Positions 2,096-49,459 of a stretch of DNA of 49,509 bases are shown here, in pieces. A model generated the notes under the pieces. That model did no database searches, was not told where the DNA came from, and was given only the letters and a program-made list of their open reading frames with translations. Numbering within the stretch: position 1 is the stretch's first letter; the number at the start of each line of letters is the position of its first letter. The stretch is from Patescibacteria group bacterium (GTDB lineage Bacteria > Patescibacteriota > Patescibacteriia > 2-12-FULL-60-25), in contig JAQULH010000006.1 of the NCBI GenBank assembly GCA_029004215.1, positions 1 to 49,509 on the forward strand, written 5' to 3'. Made by a program: the position numbers and the translations under genes.

Positions 2096-2626
2096 CTATC
2101 GAGCTTCGAGCTTCTCGAAGTCCTTGGTCAAGCTGGCGATGGCGGATTTGGCCCAGAACGTGCCGTACGGCTCATGCTCCAGGCGATCCTCGGGGCGGAT
2201 GTTTGCGGCGACGTAGGCTTGCAGCCGTTTTGCCCGCGCGTAGTACTCCTCTCCGTACTCCTCGCCTCTTAAGGGGTAGACGGTGAAAGGATGTACGTGC
2301 GTCTCTGGCGGGCGGAACACTGTTACCAAACTCACATATCCGCTCAGGATAGATGAGAAGGAACGATGCATCCGACCCCCTGTAGGGAGCCTCCTCTGGT
2401 AAAAGGAGTGCAGGCTGTGACCCGTGATGACACAGAGACCATGATTCCCGTCCTGTGCTACATCGCCATCCTTGACGTCGATTCGGCTCATCGCTTGCTG
2501 GTAGGTCTGGGACATGCGACGTCCATGCGCGTCTTCGCGCTTACGGAGTGCGGGGACACGCGGGTCAGGCACTCCGAATTCTTCGCGCAACGCTTTTCTG
2601 CCCTGAGCTGAGTTCAAACTCATCAT
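2096..2626 (-). CDS. Hypothetical protein, last gene of the Ro transcription unit
   Basis: This is a 176-residue protein with no family I recognise. The ATG at 2626 is chosen because GGAGG lies 6 bp upstream; the frame stays open 31 codons further upstream, but that part runs through a repeated leader hairpin. The sequence is hydrophilic, has no signal peptide or membrane segment, and ends with a Lys/Glu-rich helix-like tail. Its 5' leader contains copy (a) of an element also found before the Ro gene, so the two genes are probably co-regulated. The last codons overlap a CGAGCTTCGAG-type repeat. It might be a partner of the Ro protein, but only position supports that. Confidence 0.6.
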   Translation of the reverse strand: MMSLNSAQGRKALREEFGVPDPRVPALRKREDAHGRRMSQTYQQAMSRIDVKDGDVAQDGNHGLCVITGHSLHSFYQRRLPTGGRMHRSFSSILSGYVSLVTVFRPPETHVHPFTVYPLRGEEYGEEYYARAKRLQAYVAANIRPEDRLEHEPYGTFWAKSAIASLTKDFEKLEAR

Positions 2627-2744: not shown

Positions 2745-3160
2745 AGTTGTGCGATGCTCCACCTACTCCTGGTGGAGACATTCGTGCCTGCGCACGTCCC
2801 CTGCCACCGCGCTTTGCGCTATCGCGATGACGGAGGTTTGGAAGCCGCGTAAAACTTCCATTTGGCTACTGCCCCGTAGGATTGCGCGTCCTCGGGTCCA
2901 ACAGTAACCGCAATGCTTGGCCGTCGCACCGGCCAAACCCTGCACACAGTCCAGAAGGCACAGTAGCGAAGATGTGCCCTTCCGGGACCGCCTGTGTTTC
3001 CCACTTCGGCGGCTATCGTGGTCCAGGCCGCTACAAGCCTGGAAGTTGGGACGCGATGGTCACTTACGCAGTGACCATCGCCCACGAACTAGGTGACCGT
3101 GTCTCACCCGCCTAGTCATCATATCCCGATTGTTCCGGATAAAATGACTAAACGGGTGAT
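2745..3160 (-). ncRNA. Candidate structured non-coding RNA between Ro gene and 176-residue gene
   Basis: This block of about 415 bases has no convincing ORF and is filled with strong hairpins: a 15-bp helix at 3105-3158 enclosing a smaller stem, a perfect 12-bp hairpin at 3053-3081, and stems at 3023-3042, 2955-2981, 2917-2936, 2783-2796 and 2757-2777. In the 15-bp helix two positions are U-G pairs if read on the minus strand but C/A mismatches on the plus strand, which argues that the RNA is made from the minus strand, the same as the Ro gene. Bacterial Ro proteins are known to bind Y RNAs encoded nearby. I cannot match this sequence to a known Y RNA. Confidence 0.55.
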
Positions 3161-3179
3161 TTATTTTTATGGAACATGC

Positions 3180-3262
3180 CTCCTCTTTCGTTTCCGACAA
3201 GACGTCAGAATCGAGAGATGAGGCGCGAGGGACTTTGTTATCCTCGCGCGAGAGAGTTGAGG
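3180..3262 (-). promoter_or_regulatory. Two-hairpin leader element, copy (b)
   Basis: The 50-odd bases at 3180-3232 are almost identical to copy (a), including TCCTCTTTCGTTTCCGACAA on the plus strand. On the minus strand the GC stem (CTCGCGCGAG...CTCGCGCC) precedes the TTCTGACG/TGTCGGAA hairpin and AAAGAGGAGG. It leads into the structured RNA block, not an obvious gene; the only ORF after AGGAGG is nine codons long and sits too close to it. Confidence 0.6.
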
Positions 3263-3327: not shown

Positions 3328-5031
3328 TCATTCCGGCTCATGCAGGGCACGCTTCGCGGGCTCCCAACCGTTGATCAGATCAACCGCTTGGCGTCCGTCC
3401 TCTTCGAGAAGAGGCAGGATCTCAAGCGCTCGTTCAGACCATCCGGCCAGGCATGCCACGCGCCGTTCACTCGGCGGGAACTGAGCTGTCCCGTAACCAG
3501 AGAGATCCACAGAGTGCATGAACACCTGGGGATTCACTGAGCTGCGGTACTTGCGCAATTCCTCAGCCAATGACTCGTTGCGCGCATGACCCCAAAGCAT
3601 GGGATCATGGCCCGAAGCGTAGCACTGCATGTCCGAGATCAGGACGATCCGGTCGACCCGAATCTTCCTTTCCCGGAGATGGCGCACCGGCAGGTACGCG
3701 TTCGTAGAGCCACCATGCACGGCGTTCGAGAGCCGGGCCATGTTTGTGAAGATCGAATCCTTGCGGATGATCGGCACAATGACATGGTCGGTCCCAAAAG
3801 CCGAACAGATGGACTCCTCGCACAACGTATGGCTGACGGCGGCCAACAGGTTGGCTACATCCTTCATCTCCACCGTGCTTCGCTCAGAAAGCGGGTGACT
3901 CATGGATCCGGAATTGTCAGACATGATGAACGTGCGGCCCGGCAAGCGGGGCAAATTCACCAGCGACAGCTCCATGGCCGTGAGGATCGCTTCCAAGACT
4001 TCGGCGCGGCGCGGATGGTTGAGGATGGCCTGGTCCACGACAAAGCATTGCTGCCGCTTGTCGAACCTGTAGCCGGTCTCGATGACCTTGTAGGCCGAGA
4101 AGAAGCGGAATGGCATCTGCCTTGACCGTTGCACATGCTCGGGATTGCGGAACATGGACAACACGCGATCAAGCGCCTGGTCAGCGCCCTTTCGCATGAT
4201 GTTCGAGAGGTTTCGCAGCCCGGCCATGAACGGCAGGAAGCGGAGCGCGTTCCAGACTTCTGCGGTGTTGCCGAACTTGGACGTCAGCACCTCCCACGTG
4301 GCGTGGGCGCGGGCCGCAAGCTCGATGGCTTCGGGATCAAGCTGCTCCTTGCGGAGCAACTCGGCCTTAGCCGCCAGCTTGGGCAGGTGCGTTGCGTTAA
4401 TCTCCTGCTTCACCAAGTACCGGAACAGCGCCGACTGAGCGTCGCTGACCGGCTTGGGGCGGAGAATGCGCAAGGCGTCGCGCAGTTTGACAGCACCATC
4501 GCGGTCATACTTGGCGAACTGGTACTCGTCGAACTGCCCGAGCGCGTCTTGGAGACCGCGCGTGAGCGAGTTCGGCAGAGCATGTTCCTTGCCTTGGGCA
4601 TCGGCCGAGCCGATGCTGCCATGACGCAGGATCCAGTAAGCCAGCGTTTCCGCGATCTCGTCCGCGCGCCGCACAATCTGCGGCGTCCAGCGACGGACGA
4701 AAGGCTTGCAGGCCGGAATGGCCGCAGCCTCGACGAGCAGAGTGACCGGGGTCGAGCGGATGCCTACGACTTGGCGGGTGTAAGCCGCCAGGCGCAGGAC
4801 AAATTCCGGATCAACCTCAGCCGCTTGCCCGATGTCCGAGACAAGTTCGGCGTCGGCCTGGTTGGCCTCGGTGTAGAACTTGTCTTCGCGCATGAGCGAC
4901 GCAACGGCCCAAGTGTAGAGCCGAGTGCGCGGGTCAAACGCGAATGCCAGGCCGCCCTCATGGTTGGCTGTGGCATTGGGATGGGAAACGAGCTGCTGGT
5001 TGATCGAGAGCGCGACGTTGGACTTTGCCAT
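3328..5031 (-). CDS. Ro60-like TROVE/vWA RNA-binding protein
   Basis: The protein belongs to the Ro60 (TROVE) family, ring-shaped proteins that bind Y RNAs and misfolded or structured RNA; the Deinococcus member Rsr works in rRNA and stress RNA processing. The 567 residues have the family's usual two-part layout: an alpha-helical TROVE domain (about 15-355; landmarks RLYTWAVASLMREDKFY, PEFVLRLAAYTRQ, TRGLQDALGQFDEYQFAKY) and a vWA domain (about 365-560) with a complete MIDAS: DNSGSM near 372, Thr in GGSTNAYL, Asp in LISDM. The ATG at 5031 is chosen because GGAGG sits 5 bp upstream; an ATG four codons earlier would overlap it. Both flanks hold structured non-coding sequence. GC-rich compared with many neighbours. 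Confidence 0.93.
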   Translation of the reverse strand: MAKSNVALSINQQLVSHPNATANHEGGLAFAFDPRTRLYTWAVASLMREDKFYTEANQADAELVSDIGQAAEVDPEFVLRLAAYTRQVVGIRSTPVTLLVEAAAIPACKPFVRRWTPQIVRRADEIAETLAYWILRHGSIGSADAQGKEHALPNSLTRGLQDALGQFDEYQFAKYDRDGAVKLRDALRILRPKPVSDAQSALFRYLVKQEINATHLPKLAAKAELLRKEQLDPEAIELAARAHATWEVLTSKFGNTAEVWNALRFLPFMAGLRNLSNIMRKGADQALDRVLSMFRNPEHVQRSRQMPFRFFSAYKVIETGYRFDKRQQCFVVDQAILNHPRRAEVLEAILTAMELSLVNLPRLPGRTFIMSDNSGSMSHPLSERSTVEMKDVANLLAAVSHTLCEESICSAFGTDHVIVPIIRKDSIFTNMARLSNAVHGGSTNAYLPVRHLRERKIRVDRIVLISDMQCYASGHDPMLWGHARNESLAEELRKYRSSVNPQVFMHSVDLSGYGTAQFPPSERRVACLAGWSERALEILPLLEEDGRQAVDLINGWEPAKRALHEPE

Positions 5032-5045
5032 GGCTGCCTCCACGC

Positions 5046-5165
5046 TGCCCCGATTTCATCGGGGAGTAGTTTGGGTTGTAAGTTTCAATCCTCCTCTTCC
5101 ATTCCCGACTTTTGTCAGGACTGGGAGAGGCGGCGCGAGCAAGGTTGAGCCAAGCTCGCGCAAGA
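5046..5165 (-). promoter_or_regulatory. Leader element, copy (c), plus start-proximal hairpin of the Ro gene
   Basis: On the minus strand: stem GCGCGAGC/GCTCGCGC, then a hairpin closed by CCTCT/AGAGG with CCTGAC-AAAA-GTCGGG inside, then a third stem CCCCGAT/ATCGGGG directly before the GGAGG of the Ro gene. The architecture matches copies (a) and (b), though its sequence has diverged. The pyrimidine arm CCTCT can pair with the purine tract AAGAGGAGG, suggesting a switchable ribosome-site-like tract. Confidence 0.6.
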
Positions 5166-5660
5166 GAAACACCAGAGGGAAAAGGCGGATTCGGTTTCTT
5201 GTCGTGACGCCGTATCGCCACAACATCCATGAAGTCTTACGACCCCATAGATTCACTCTTTGCGACCCGGATTGATCCGGGTCCCGACAAATCCTTTTAC
5301 GGAGGACGTCGGTTTGCAGCCTTCTGATTGCGAATAGTACGAAGGAACCGGACCCTACGCCGCTCTGGTGAGATTTTGAGGTTGGGAGAAAGGCCGAATG
5401 GAGTCGTCTGAATATACAATCAGATGATTTTCTTCGAAGTAACTCCACTCTACGCTACCCAATTCCTCGTCACGCCAGACCAGAGTTGATCAAGCAGGAC
5501 GAGGAACCGAGAGGCTCCCCGCAAACCACACGAGGGCTGGTTAATCCCGTTTCACCCGGAACTATGCCGGGTGGCTTTGGATTTAATCAGCTTGCCTAGT
5601 AAGCATCTCTAGGTCGTTTGATGGTGATTGTAAGGTTCTTTTCTCCTGTTCAACCTTCAA
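5166..5660 (-). ncRNA. Structured 5' region of the Ro unit: long leader or separate small RNA(s)
   Basis: No believable ORF is present, but there are many stems: 5264-5283 (GACCCGG/CCGGGTC), 5285-5312 (CCGAC/GTCGG), 5320-5345 (CCTTC/GAAGG), 5399-5447 (TGGAGT/ACTCCA with TCTGA/TCAGA inside), 5463-5506 (TTCCTCGTC/GACGAGGAA), 5595-5613 and an imperfect hairpin of 56 bases at 5536-5591 capped by CACCCGG/CCGGGTG. The promoter-like site at 5669-5697 points into it. By position it is the best place for a Y-like RNA upstream of a bacterial Ro gene. Confidence 0.5.
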
Positions 5661-5668
5661 CGTAAAGA

Positions 5669-5697
5669 ACCCTAGCATGGCTCTAGAAATTTGTCAA
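5669..5697 (-). promoter_or_regulatory. Candidate promoter of the Ro transcription unit
   Basis: On the minus strand a perfect TTGACA (5692-5697) is followed after 17 bp by TAGGGT (5669-5674). The -35 is consensus and the -10 is weak, so other factors may be needed. Confidence 0.45.
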
Positions 5698-6063: not shown

Positions 6064-6081
6064 ATGGGTTCCGGACGCTAA
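6064..6081 (+). CDS. Possible five-codon ORF (MGSGR)
   Basis: ATG-GGT-TCC-GGA-CGC-TAA follows AAAGGAGG (6051-6058) with ideal 5-bp spacing and is followed 8 bp later by a strong terminator. The ribosome site is among the best in the window, which is odd for so short an ORF; it may serve ribosome capture or attenuation. Confidence 0.3.
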   Translation: MGSGR

Positions 6082-6932: not shown

Positions 6933-6978
6933 ATATAAAAAACAACCGCGTTCTCGAGTGAGTGCGCGGTTTTGAGAT
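6933..6978. terminator. Repeat copy 2: terminator of the radical SAM gene
   Basis: Nearly identical to 1944-1990. The stem starts right after the radical SAM stop and runs into a T-tract on the minus strand. The two copies flank the whole Ro/TrmB segment. Confidence 0.75.
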
Positions 6979-41065: not shown

Positions 41066-42730
41066 ATGCCTGAAACGAGCCTCAAGGCGTGCGTCATTTA
41101 TTGCCGTGTATCCTCGAAGGAGCAAGTCGAGGGCACGAGTTTAGATAATCAGGAGCGGCTTTGTCGTGAGTACGCCGAACGAAATGGTTTAGCCGTACTC
41201 AAAGTGTTTGTTGAAATGGGCGAATCGGCAAAGACAGCCGACCGTACAGAATTCACCAAGGCGATTGCGTTTTGCACCCACAAGAAAGGTCGCGTTCACC
41301 AATTCATCGTTTACAAGATTGATCGCTTTGCTCGCAACCAAGATGACCACGTTGTTGTCCGGAGCTTGCTCAAGCGAGCTGGCACCGAGCTCCGTTCTGC
41401 CACGGAAACGTTTGATGAAAGTGCGATGGGGAGAGCTATGGAAGGGATGCTGTCCGTCTTCGCAGAATTCGATAACAACAACCGTCGCGAGCGTTGCAAA
41501 AGCGGGATGCAGGCGCGTGTACGCGAAGGTCTCTGGTGTTGGGCGGCACCGCTTGGCTATCACAGACCGGTTAAGGGCAAGAAAACAAACATCGTGCCCG
41601 AACCGGAACGCGCTCCGCTCATCCGTTTGGCGTTCGAGCTCTATTCAAAAGGCACGTATACATTCAAAGCATTGGCTCGACTATTGGGTGATCGCGGATT
41701 ACGCACGCGCGAGGGGAAATATCCGATTCAGCAAACGCTCGAGAAAATCATCACAAACCCCGTGTATTGCGGTCGAATCAAGGCGTTCGGGGAGATGGCG
41801 AAAGGCAATTTTGAATCCATCGTCGATGAGGCGTTGTTCGCTCAATGCCAAAATGTGAAGAGCGGACTTCACCTCAAAGGCAAGCCGCGTGCGTTCAACA
41901 ATCCTGCTTTCCCGTTGCGGCGGTTCGTTGTTTGCCAGCATTGCAATCAGCCACTTACCGGAAGCTTTGCTCGTAGCCGCAGAGGCAAACGCCATCCGTA
42001 CTATCACCATGGTAGCAAGAAGTGCGCGCATTCAAAATCCATTCAAAAGGGTGTATTCGAACAAAAATTCGTTCAGCTCTTGGAAACTATCGAGCCGGAC
42101 ACGAAGTACGAGAAGCTGTTCAAGGCCGTCGTGCTCGATGCGTGGCAGGAACGATACAAGAAATTTGATGAGACGAATGCCCGCGTTCGGAAGGATATCG
42201 AGAAACTCGAGCACGAACGTCAGACCATTTTCGACTTCCACCGCAACGGTAAATACACCGATGATGAATTCGTGACCCAAAAACACCTCGTCAACGAGCG
42301 GATCGACCAGAAACGCCTACTACTCCAAGACGCGCGGCAAAAAGAGTTGGATATGGAAATGGCTTTGAATTATTGTTTTCATTTCATCCGTAACGCTTCG
42401 AAGGTTTGGATGGATTTGGCTGACGATTATGAGGCGCGGATCAACCTCCAGCATTTGATTTTCGCAAAGCCGCTCATGTTTGATGGTGATTCTTTTGGAA
42501 CCCCCGAATTGTCGCTAGTCTTTGCACAAAAAAAGACTTCTCCTGATGAGAAGTCTTTTTTGGTAGACCAACCTGCTAATTTTTGGAACCAGCTGGTTGA
42601 GGAGCTAAAACAGCTCCATGCCATTGGTTTTGAGGTAAGACAAGGTGTTATTAATGGGAATAAACACTACCAGAGAGGAGTGGAAATAGAAAAAGAACAC
42701 CCCAGCAGCTACGCATGGGGTGTTGAGTAG
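41066..42730 (+). CDS. Large serine recombinase 1
   Basis: Site-specific recombinase of the large serine integrase family, 554 residues. The resolvase domain has the nucleophile in YCRVSSKEQ (Ser16), with YKIDRFARN and the Arg-rich RRERCKSGMQ helix. The recombinase DNA-binding domain (about 150-265; APLGYHR, ALARLLGDRGLRTREG) is followed by the zinc ribbon (CQHC ... HHGSKKCAHS) and a coiled coil (about 355-440). After FGTPELSLVFAQKKTS the frame crosses a hairpin and the att-like TTGGTAGACC and runs on for about 50 residues with no likeness to the family, so the C-terminus was probably created by insertion. Confidence 0.93.
   Translation: MPETSLKACVIYCRVSSKEQVEGTSLDNQERLCREYAERNGLAVLKVFVEMGESAKTADRTEFTKAIAFCTHKKGRVHQFIVYKIDRFARNQDDHVVVRSLLKRAGTELRSATETFDESAMGRAMEGMLSVFAEFDNNNRRERCKSGMQARVREGLWCWAAPLGYHRPVKGKKTNIVPEPERAPLIRLAFELYSKGTYTFKALARLLGDRGLRTREGKYPIQQTLEKIITNPVYCGRIKAFGEMAKGNFESIVDEALFAQCQNVKSGLHLKGKPRAFNNPAFPLRRFVVCQHCNQPLTGSFARSRRGKRHPYYHHGSKKCAHSKSIQKGVFEQKFVQLLETIEPDTKYEKLFKAVVLDAWQERYKKFDETNARVRKDIEKLEHERQTIFDFHRNGKYTDDEFVTQKHLVNERIDQKRLLLQDARQKELDMEMALNYCFHFIRNASKVWMDLADDYEARINLQHLIFAKPLMFDGDSFGTPELSLVFAQKKTSPDEKSFLVDQPANFWNQLVEELKQLHAIGFEVRQGVINGNKHYQRGVEIEKEHPSSYAWGVE
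42534..42562 (+). terminator. Hairpin at the 3' end of recombinase 1
   Basis: AAGACTTCT/AGAAGTCTT with loop CCTGATG, followed by TTTTTT, inside the annotated frame and just before TTGGTAGACC. Confidence 0.65.
42560..42569. repeat. att-like core TTGGTAGACC, middle copy
   Basis: One mismatch to the left (39070) and right (49384) copies; it lies directly after the recombinase 1 hairpin, where the family C-terminus should end. Confidence 0.5.
42692..42726. terminator. Hairpin at the recombinase 1 frame end
   Basis: GAACACCCC/GGGGTGTT around a loop of about 12 bases. No U-tract on the plus strand. Confidence 0.4.
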
Positions 42731-46573: not shown

Positions 46574-46803
46574 AATGGTAATTGGCAGAGGCTTGATAAA
46601 CACAAAGCCCGCCGCCAGCGGCAACCTTTCGGTCGCCCATATCTCTTTCGAGACATGACCATACAAGTAGTGCTGAACGACGGGTTCAGTATCTTGTATG
46701 GGTTTCATGCCATGCCCGTGCCAAGGCGCGAGTTTAGGCGGGTTTAAATTGTGTCATCATAGTACCCAAATCTACCCAACCTGTGAAGATGTTGCTTTTC
46801 CCC

Positions 46804-47732: not shown

Positions 47733-47894
47733 ATGGTCGAACACGAATCGCTCGCGGCCAAACTCCGAAAGGAATTTGACCGTTTGCAAATCACGGACGA
47801 GACAACCAGAAATGCCCTTACAACCGAACTGAATCAAATTGCCATACTCCTGATTGAATCTTGTCCGCATGATCCAACAGAAGTCAAAATGTAA
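47733..47894 (+). CDS. Small ORF preceding recombinase 2
   Basis: 53 residues (MVEHESLAAKLRKEFDRLQI ... LLIESCPHDPTEVKM), ending 22 bp before the recombinase start. It is helical and analogous in position and size to the 62-residue ORF before recombinase 1, although the sequences differ. Confidence 0.5.
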   Translation: MVEHESLAAKLRKEFDRLQITDETTRNALTTELNQIAILLIESCPHDPTEVKM

Positions 47895-47916
47895 CCGTAC
47901 ACATTTCCCGCTAAAT

Positions 47917-49425
47917 ATGTCGCCCAAACATGTCATCGGATATTGTCGCGTCAGCACCACCGAACAGGTGCGTGAAGGCGCGAGTTTGGACGTGCAGGAG
48001 CGCATCCTCCGCGAGCACGCGGCGCGGCAAGGTTGGGAAATGGGTAAAGTGTATGTCGAAAAAGGCGAAAGCGCTAAAACCACCAACAGAACCGAACTGC
48101 AAGCAATGCTCCGGCACTGTAAAGAAAATCCGAAGAAGGTTGATGCAGTGCTCGTTTATAAGATAGACCGTTTGACCCGAAATACCGAAAACTACTATCA
48201 GCTCAAAGGTTTTTTTACGGCGCTTGGGATCGAATTGGTATCAGTCGGCGAACCCGTGGAAAATACTCCCGTTGGCCGTTTCGTGGAAGGTATGTTTGCA
48301 AATGTGGCACAGCTTGATAATGACATGCGCTCGGAACGTTGCCGTAACGGAATGAAAGAAGCTGTCCGTAATGGCCGCTACGTATGGAAGGCGCCACTCG
48401 GCTATAAAAATGTGACCGTGAATGGCAAAAAGAATATCACCCCAGAAGAACCGCAAGCTGCGTTTATCGCTCGCGGCTTCAACTTGGTGGACAATGGATA
48501 CACGCCCACCGAGGCGCTCCGTGTTTTAGAAAAAGACGGTTTTCGCCAGCGGAACGGTAAGCATGTCGCGTTTACCCATTGGAGCAAGCTGCTGCGCCAC
48601 ACGCTCTACGCTGGCCATATCAGCGCGTTCGGTGACGTTGTGAAGGGTAGCTTCACTCCGATTGTGGATACAGTTTTGTTTGAGCGCGTCCAGCAAACAC
48701 TGCGGGGTAACAGCGCCAAGCTTCCCGTCTACCGCAAGCAACGTGACGACTTCCCATTGCGCGGTTTGTTTGTCTGTACCTGTGGCAAACATCTCACGGC
48801 GAGCTGGTCACGCGGGCGTCATGGCAAACGCTATCCGTTCTACCATTGCGCCAAGTGCAAGGGCGTAAGGCGGCGCAAGGACGATCTGGAGGCCGAATTT
48901 TCGAATCTATTGGCAGACAAAAACATGGACGAGAACCTTGCTACGTTGCTTCGCATTGCCATCGCGGAAAACCTCAAAATCAAGCTGGAAGACAACGAAA
49001 AACGCAAGCGTGAGATCGAGCATCGCATTTTGGAGCTTGAGGACGAGCAGGCGCACATCGTAAAGAAAAACATCGCAGGGACATTCAACGATGAAATGGC
49101 AAAACGGCTCACGGAAAAAGCCGAGGCGGAGATCAACGAACTACATCAGGAACTCGCAACCATCCCTACGACAGCGGAACGCGTGGAACATTTTGTAGAA
49201 TACGGTTTACTTGTTATGCGTGACGTTCAAACCGCATGGCAAACCTTTCCATTATTACAAAAACAGCGGTTCCAATCATTTCTTTTTCCCGAAGGCGTGC
49301 CGTTTGACCACGGAAAATTTGGAACCCCTAAAACTGCGCTAGTATTAGAAATAAAAACAACCTTCCGTGATGGAAAGTTGCTTTTGGTAGCCCCAAGGGG
49401 AGTCGAACCCCTCTTAACGGCTTGA
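47917..49425 (+). CDS. Large serine recombinase 2, reading into tRNA-Glu
   Basis: 502 residues; the ATG at 47917 gives MSPKHVIGYCRVSTTEQ, with the nucleophile in CRVST (Ser13). The resolvase domain (YKIDRLTRN), recombinase domain (APLGYKN ... GFRQRNGKHVAF), zinc ribbon (CTCGKHLTASWSRGRHGK ... CAKCKG) and coiled coil (about 350-420) are complete. After FGTPKTALVLEIKTT the frame crosses a hairpin, the att-like TTGGTAGCCC and 41 bases of the antisense tRNA-Glu gene; the last residues VAPRGVEPLLTA are tRNA complement, so the true C-terminus is set by the integration site. Confidence 0.93.
   Translation: MSPKHVIGYCRVSTTEQVREGASLDVQERILREHAARQGWEMGKVYVEKGESAKTTNRTELQAMLRHCKENPKKVDAVLVYKIDRLTRNTENYYQLKGFFTALGIELVSVGEPVENTPVGRFVEGMFANVAQLDNDMRSERCRNGMKEAVRNGRYVWKAPLGYKNVTVNGKKNITPEEPQAAFIARGFNLVDNGYTPTEALRVLEKDGFRQRNGKHVAFTHWSKLLRHTLYAGHISAFGDVVKGSFTPIVDTVLFERVQQTLRGNSAKLPVYRKQRDDFPLRGLFVCTCGKHLTASWSRGRHGKRYPFYHCAKCKGVRRRKDDLEAEFSNLLADKNMDENLATLLRIAIAENLKIKLEDNEKRKREIEHRILELEDEQAHIVKKNIAGTFNDEMAKRLTEKAEAEINELHQELATIPTTAERVEHFVEYGLLVMRDVQTAWQTFPLLQKQRFQSFLFPEGVPFDHGKFGTPKTALVLEIKTTFRDGKLLLVAPRGVEPLLTA
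49359..49384 (+). terminator. Hairpin at the 3' end of recombinase 2
   Basis: AAC-C-TTCC/GGAA-A-GTT around GTGAT, then GCTTTT, directly before TTGGTAGCCC. Same architecture as at 42534-42562. Confidence 0.5.
49384..49393. repeat. att-like core TTGGTAGCCC, right copy (tRNA-Glu 3' end)
   Basis: Complement of the last bases of tRNA-Glu (GGGCTACCA plus A). Identical to 39070-39079. The tRNA 3' end is the probable chromosomal target of the elements. Confidence 0.55.
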
Positions 49426-49459
49426 AAAGCCGCTGTCCTAACCGATAGACGATGGGGCC
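49385..49459 (-). tRNA. tRNA-Glu (anticodon TTC)
   Basis: 75 bases on the minus strand, with encoded CCA. Acceptor GGCCCCA/TGGGGCT (first pair G-U), D-arm around TCTATCGGTTAGGAC, anticodon stem GCGGC/GCCGT with loop TTTTCAA, and T-arm AGGGG-TTCGACT-CCCCT. The anticodon TTC reads GAA/GAG. The 3' part overlaps the recombinase 2 frame on the other strand. Confidence 0.95.

Follow-up and report, generated by a model that had tools for sequence, protein, structure and literature searches.

An apparently new large structured RNA in a TrmB-linked locus of Patescibacteria, with Ro as an optional neighbour

The window, that is, the whole stretch of 49,509 nucleotides analysed here, belongs to a Patescibacteria genome (Ca. 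Uhrbacteria) of 1.2 Mb and 95.6% completeness. At positions 2745-3160, between a Ro gene and a gene for a 176-aa protein, its minus strand encodes a structured RNA unit of about 415 nt, referred to below as the M-type RNA. Given its fold, the covariation found in three genomes, the lack of a conserved reading frame and the lack of any Rfam match, this RNA is real, minus-strand and new. We consider it somewhat probable that it is a stable non-coding unit of an RNA-array operon in which Ro would be an optional passenger or chaperone.

Structure, strand and conservation of the M-type RNA

The minus strand of 2745-3160 folded with a minimum free energy (MFE) of -216.3 kcal/mol (z -10.5; shuffles -155.1 +/- 5.8, 0/100 as low), while the plus strand reached -180.6 kcal/mol (z -6.5). 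The minus strand is therefore clearly the better one for the RNA, as the initial annotation had predicted from U-G pairs in a long 5' helix; read on the plus strand, these pairs do turn into A/C mismatches. All the stems of the hairpin chain named in that annotation were present in the computed fold. The RNA begins with a 5' hairpin, P1 (3159-3104), the long helix, for which the MFE fold gives 17 nested pairs in the outer part, U-G pairs among them. P2 (about 3103-3095 with 2951-2943) closes a multibranch domain, within which a perfect 12-bp hairpin at 3053-3081, also named earlier, was recovered in the minus-strand MFE fold (GCGAUGGUCACU-GCGUA-AGUGACCAUCGC, reading from 3081 to 3053); six of its 12 pairs are changed on both sides among three genomes. 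The hairpin P6 (about 2943-2908, loop GUGCGA) follows, and the hairpin chain then runs to the 3' end.

A homologous RNA was found in a genome of the same genus (G033), in a syntenic locus and upstream of its homologue of the 176-aa gene. This non-coding stretch of 400 nt folds at z -9.0 and shows about 60% identity to the window RNA when aligned, the 3' half aligning less well than the 5' half. When the MFE structure of the window sequence alone was imposed on it, 93 of 128 aligned pairs were standard and 24 were changed on both sides, against about 36-54% paired in slid controls; RNAalifold gave 100 common pairs for the two sequences, 25 of them compensatory. A third copy is present in a genome of another genus (G007, L078:4192-4432). 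It was matched at 56.9 bits (E 2.4e-13) by a covariance model trained on the window and G033 only, and this match is therefore an independent test of the structure. The three genomes were aligned by MAFFT on sequence only, and the structure applied to them was that of the window sequence by itself. In this alignment 82.7% of cells were paired, compared with 34-46% in slid versions. Changes on both sides affected 30 of 91 pairs, compared with a shuffled mean of 13.3 (0/500 shuffles) and 4-8 in slid versions. These compensatory changes strongly support the earlier proposal of a non-coding, multi-stem RNA read from the minus strand. A further candidate copy in G007 (4666-4875; 12.8 bits, E 0.08) is not claimed. 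The M-type RNA was found in 3 of the 41 genomes of the order, so its known range is narrow.

Six-frame comparison of the M-type RNA with both homologues revealed no conserved protein, and indels of 1, 4, 5, 7, 10 and 16 nt between the homologues break every frame. A protein-coding alternative for 2745-3160 is ruled out, as no frame is conserved and the gaps do not come in threes. The earlier statement that the segment holds no ORF is correct in essence: ORFs of 60-88 aa can be called mechanically, but none is conserved as protein. Of the two outcomes that the initial annotation had named as refuting it, lack of covariation and conservation as protein, both were looked for and neither was seen.

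Searches of 2745-3160 against Rfam, at gathering and at permissive thresholds (cmscan up to E 10), assigned it to no family. With its long covarying fold and no conserved frame, the M-type RNA belongs to the generic class of large structured bacterial non-coding RNAs, and in size and complexity it is most like the ornate RNAs GOLLD, ROOL and OLE, which also have several hundred nucleotides, extensive covarying structure and no coding capacity (PMC12286853). It differs from them in that it matches none of their covariance models and that its surroundings are a chromosomal locus of Patescibacteria made up of tandem units, in which a double hairpin recurs. In the literature searched, whose coverage was incomplete, no description of it was found, and both this large structured RNA and its arrangement are apparently new. 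Elsewhere in the window, another structured RNA, LOOT (RF03000), was located at 46620-46740 on the minus strand (79.9 bits); it lies 43 kb from 2745-3160, which does not match the LOOT model. Two serine-recombinase-like ORFs were also recognised by eye (41066-42730 and 47854-49425, plus strand), the second of which ends in a tRNA-Glu (49385-49459), suggesting integrated elements.

Double hairpins and layout of the TrmB-linked loci

On the minus strand the locus consists, in this order, of a gene for a TrmB-family regulator (6887-6138; Pfam 7e-10), a promoter-like site (5697), non-coding sequence, Ro, the M-type RNA and the 176-aa ORF. On its upstream side the array has the TrmB gene as a conserved neighbour, and relatives of this gene were found in 27 of the 41 genomes of the order. 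The putative promoter (5669-5697, minus strand; TTGACA-17-TAGGGT) has a weak -10 box and was not recovered in a scan with a stricter consensus; its distance from TrmB is the same as in five relatives. Promoter spacing and TrmB neighbour are common to G000, G033, G006, G007, G009 and G016. In G007 and G009, whose loci share this layout, TrmB is followed some 440-510 nt on by a promoter that reads TTGACAAAT with a 17-nt spacer, then by a series of structured units without coding capacity and finally by a small ORF. Across the loci with this promoter spacing, the structured non-coding sequence downstream of the promoter is extended.

The first of these units in the window is a large, structured leader RNA of about 500 nt (5165-5660, minus strand; z -12.1 for the region 5720-5040). 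Its first 210 nt or so are 75% identical to G033, with 48 of 61 pairs kept, and its segment 5433-5470 matches L005:3406-3443. G006 has two paralogous RNAs, each about 700 nt long; 151 of 222 pairs are conserved between them, 15 of which are changed on both sides. The array of G016 (L114) comprises, about 450-3100 nt after TrmB, some 2.5 kb of strongly structured sequence with internal repeats behind the same promoter. In addition, L119 (G029) and L122 (G035) carry promoter-proximal structured RNAs of another type, 65% identical to each other, in which pairing is preserved through some 20 changes that are compensatory or affect one side. The interval from TrmB to the promoter of the array contains a tiny divergent ORF, MGSGR* (6064-6081, plus strand), with a Shine-Dalgarno sequence and followed by a terminator-like hairpin; the form MGSG[SRGQ]* is kept in G033, G006, G007, G009, G016 and G011. 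A terminator-like sequence of 41 nt occurs twice, at 1944-1984 and 6933-6973, with 98% identity and 5 kb apart.

The units are separated by a double hairpin, A+B, consisting of a GC-rich hairpin A and then a hairpin B with a 17-pair stem and three regularly spaced mismatches; a 53-nt repeat that flanks the M-type RNA is part of it. Neither its copies nor the leader RNA upstream of Ro had been described in the initial annotation. The window has three copies on the minus strand, one before Ro (5090-5161, between leader RNA and Ro; 69.1 bits with model R1, and compensatory changes with respect to other copies), one before the M-type RNA (3179-3249; 74.7 bits) and one before the 176-aa gene (2666-2739; 75.3 bits). 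Nine copies were found elsewhere, G006 and G033 having two each. Seven copies aligned showed 91.6% of cells paired and a covariation of 0.286, against 0.143 in shuffled alignments (0/500). Model R1 also found copies on which it had not been trained, two in G009 (60.3 and 45.4 bits) and three in tandem in G007 (42.5, 35.8 and 27.9 bits). In a scan of 333 genomes of the class, six matched, all from the same family, and nothing outside the family of the window was found at E 0.001. Ahead of ORFs of 110 and 113 aa in G007 and G009, a Shine-Dalgarno sequence lies within the 3' arm of hairpin B.

The A+B signal is strand-specific and includes U-G pairs (75 vs 35 bits with R1), which argues that these elements act as RNA. 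Their interpretation as attC-like recombination sites was rejected on the same ground. This also bears on the proposal that the array is phage or mobile cargo, its RNAs being kin of the ornate RNAs of phages and its hairpins marking cassette boundaries. The contents of the array do vary between close genomes, relatives of Ro are abundant in phages (173 records, one of them inside a tRNA island), and GOLLD and ROOL are likewise encoded close to phage tRNA islands and to clusters of stable-RNA genes (PMC12286853). However, besides the strand-specific signal expected of RNA, the hairpin B pattern was absent from viral contigs, no Rfam match to GOLLD, ROOL or OLE was obtained and TrmB is a fixed chromosomal neighbour in many genomes, and we regard this origin as very unlikely.

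The flanking genes: the 176-aa protein and Ro

The gene downstream of the M-type RNA (2096-2626, minus strand) encodes a 176-aa protein with no Pfam, PHROG, NCBIfam or PADLOC match and no relatives in viral contigs; its AlphaFold model (pLDDT 46) was unusable. PADLOC likewise gave nothing for the Ro and 110-aa proteins, and a weak match (E 0.013) for a DUF6847 protein. A hairpin sequence, CCCCC...GGTTCGGGGG, lies downstream of the 176-aa gene at about 1990-2075 and is kept in G033, where it is repeated some 1.3 kb on (L013, about 8460 and 7150).

The main rival to a separate stable RNA is that the M-type RNA could be a cis-acting leader or untranslated region controlling the 176-aa gene. It draws on the fact that RNA, A+B and the 176-aa gene (51-53% identity between the two proteins) remain linked both in the window and in G033, even though the gene upstream changes from Ro to that of the DUF6847 protein. 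The explanation is weakened by G007, in which the RNA has other neighbours, namely a further structured stretch and an unrelated-position ORF distinct from the 176-aa gene, and by G008, which has a distant homologue of the 176-aa protein without the M-type RNA. Moreover, the RNA is a chain of stable hairpins in which no terminator or Shine-Dalgarno switch was seen. On balance, we think that control of the 176-aa gene in cis is unlikely.

The Ro gene (3328-5031, minus strand) encodes a protein of 567 aa from the ATG at 5031. Since both the TROVE domain (Pfam 7e-34) and the vWA_Ro60 domain (7.5e-8) are present, it is a Ro/TROVE protein. It scored 36 bits against a cut-off of 900 for the Rsr equivalog (NF041674) and is not assigned to Rsr. 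Other matches were PHROG 850 (8e-54), PDB TROVE chains (6e-24) and Rsr 2nvo (6e-6); the match to PHROG 850, a phage family, is the better one, and the protein resembles the phage-type Ro. No close relatives were found in viral contigs. In the Arthrobacter phage Atuin (L135), a Ro-like gene is surrounded by clustered tRNA genes, of which there are more than 20.

Ro genes are rare in these bacteria. They were found in 3 of the 41 genomes of the order (that of the window, G006 and G010) and, in a separate phylum-wide sample, in 1 of 379 genomes, that of the window itself. Each of these three genes has a TrmB-family gene upstream, from which it is separated by structured non-coding sequence; this measures about 0.6 kb in the window, while G006 has 2.2 kb of it and G010 has 1.1 kb. 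A search for close relatives of the window Ro gave one genome, G006 (71% identity). The orthology of the G010 locus is uncertain, because its Ro and TrmB proteins are only 28 and 41% identical to those of the window.

The initial annotation had implied a tie between the RNA and the Ro gene. This stands in so far as the Ro genes of the order were found solely in such loci, and fails in so far as no Ro gene was found in G033 and G007, which both carry the M-type RNA; therefore, the M-type RNA does not seem to be a dedicated Ro partner. Ro is optional in the TrmB-linked RNA loci and loosely tied to them. The same observations bear on the possibility of a giant Y-RNA-like partner that would tether or gate Ro to PNPase, in the manner of the RYPER complex of Deinococcus (Ro-Y RNA-PNPase). 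Ro and the M-type RNA have one orientation, the RNA coming immediately after the gene, and PNPase is encoded in the window genome (PF03726, 26.8 bits, 797-aa frame). Yet the M-type RNA occurs without Ro, and it was not found in the Ro-bearing G006. It is also several times the length of Y RNAs, for which about 100 nt is usual. Human Y RNAs measure 83-112 nt (PMC4030889). Bacterial Ro genes often adjoin their Y RNAs (PMC7790460). In the window, the position of the M-type RNA is like that of Y RNA or YrlA with Rsr (PMC4726728, PMC7790460), whereas its much greater length, its occurrence without Ro and the lack of Rfam matches, with no Y-RNA-type family among those up to E 10, set it apart. By the tests run here, which concern Rfam matches and co-occurrence with Ro, the M-type RNA is not a Y RNA, and a Y-RNA-like partnership with Ro seems to us quite improbable. 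The locus also differs from the rsr-yrl-rtcBA RNA repair operon, as RtcB (PF01139) was not found in the 95.6% complete genome; a link of the window Ro to RtcB was accordingly discarded.

A different candidate contact for Ro is suggested by the motif G[AG]GGAUACU..AAC, which was spotted post hoc and is given as a lead only. Four copies are found in the leader RNAs of G006 (two exact and two with one mismatch) and two exact copies in the leader of G010, 2899 and 3323 nt after TrmB (L117), so that it is common to two Ro-bearing loci. No mismatch-free copy was found in the loci without Ro, and the window has degenerate copies only.

Proposed function of the array and its significance

In the reading that we favour, a minus-strand operon transcribed from a promoter near 5697 would comprise the leader RNA, Ro, the M-type RNA and the 176-aa gene. 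The A+B hairpins would most likely be sites at which the primary transcript is cut or at which 3'-to-5' decay stops, and as a consequence the M-type RNA would accumulate as a separate stable RNA, which may act in trans as a scaffold or a decoy. When an ORF directly follows A+B, as in G007 and G009, the arm of hairpin B with the Shine-Dalgarno sequence could also restrain translation. Where Ro is present, it may bind and stabilise the array RNAs, probably the leader RNAs and not the M-type RNA. What the analysis establishes is the conserved fold and its strand, the lack of a conserved frame, the shared order of units, the recurrence of the hairpins and the occurrence of the RNA with or without Ro; the processing, stability, trans action and Ro contact of the array RNAs are what we infer. 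A more ambitious version, in which the array is modular, with each unit behind a processing hairpin pair, and Ro is a dedicated chaperone recruited through the G[AG]GGAUACU..AAC motif, is put forward tentatively and with considerable doubt.

Few products of bacterial genomes are as puzzling as large structured RNAs without an assigned function. In this case, genomes of Patescibacteria that are otherwise stripped down devote a locus of 1-3 kb to structured RNAs. In several of them it adjoins the same regulator gene, and this locus is the sole kind of Ro site found in the order. It makes two questions testable, namely which RNA is the ligand of a bacterial Ro that is not Rsr and how large RNAs arrayed in this way come to be cut into separate units. 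If the modular array and the reading of the motif as a Ro site were true, structured RNAs would be organised here in a new way and Ro would have ligands of a new class.
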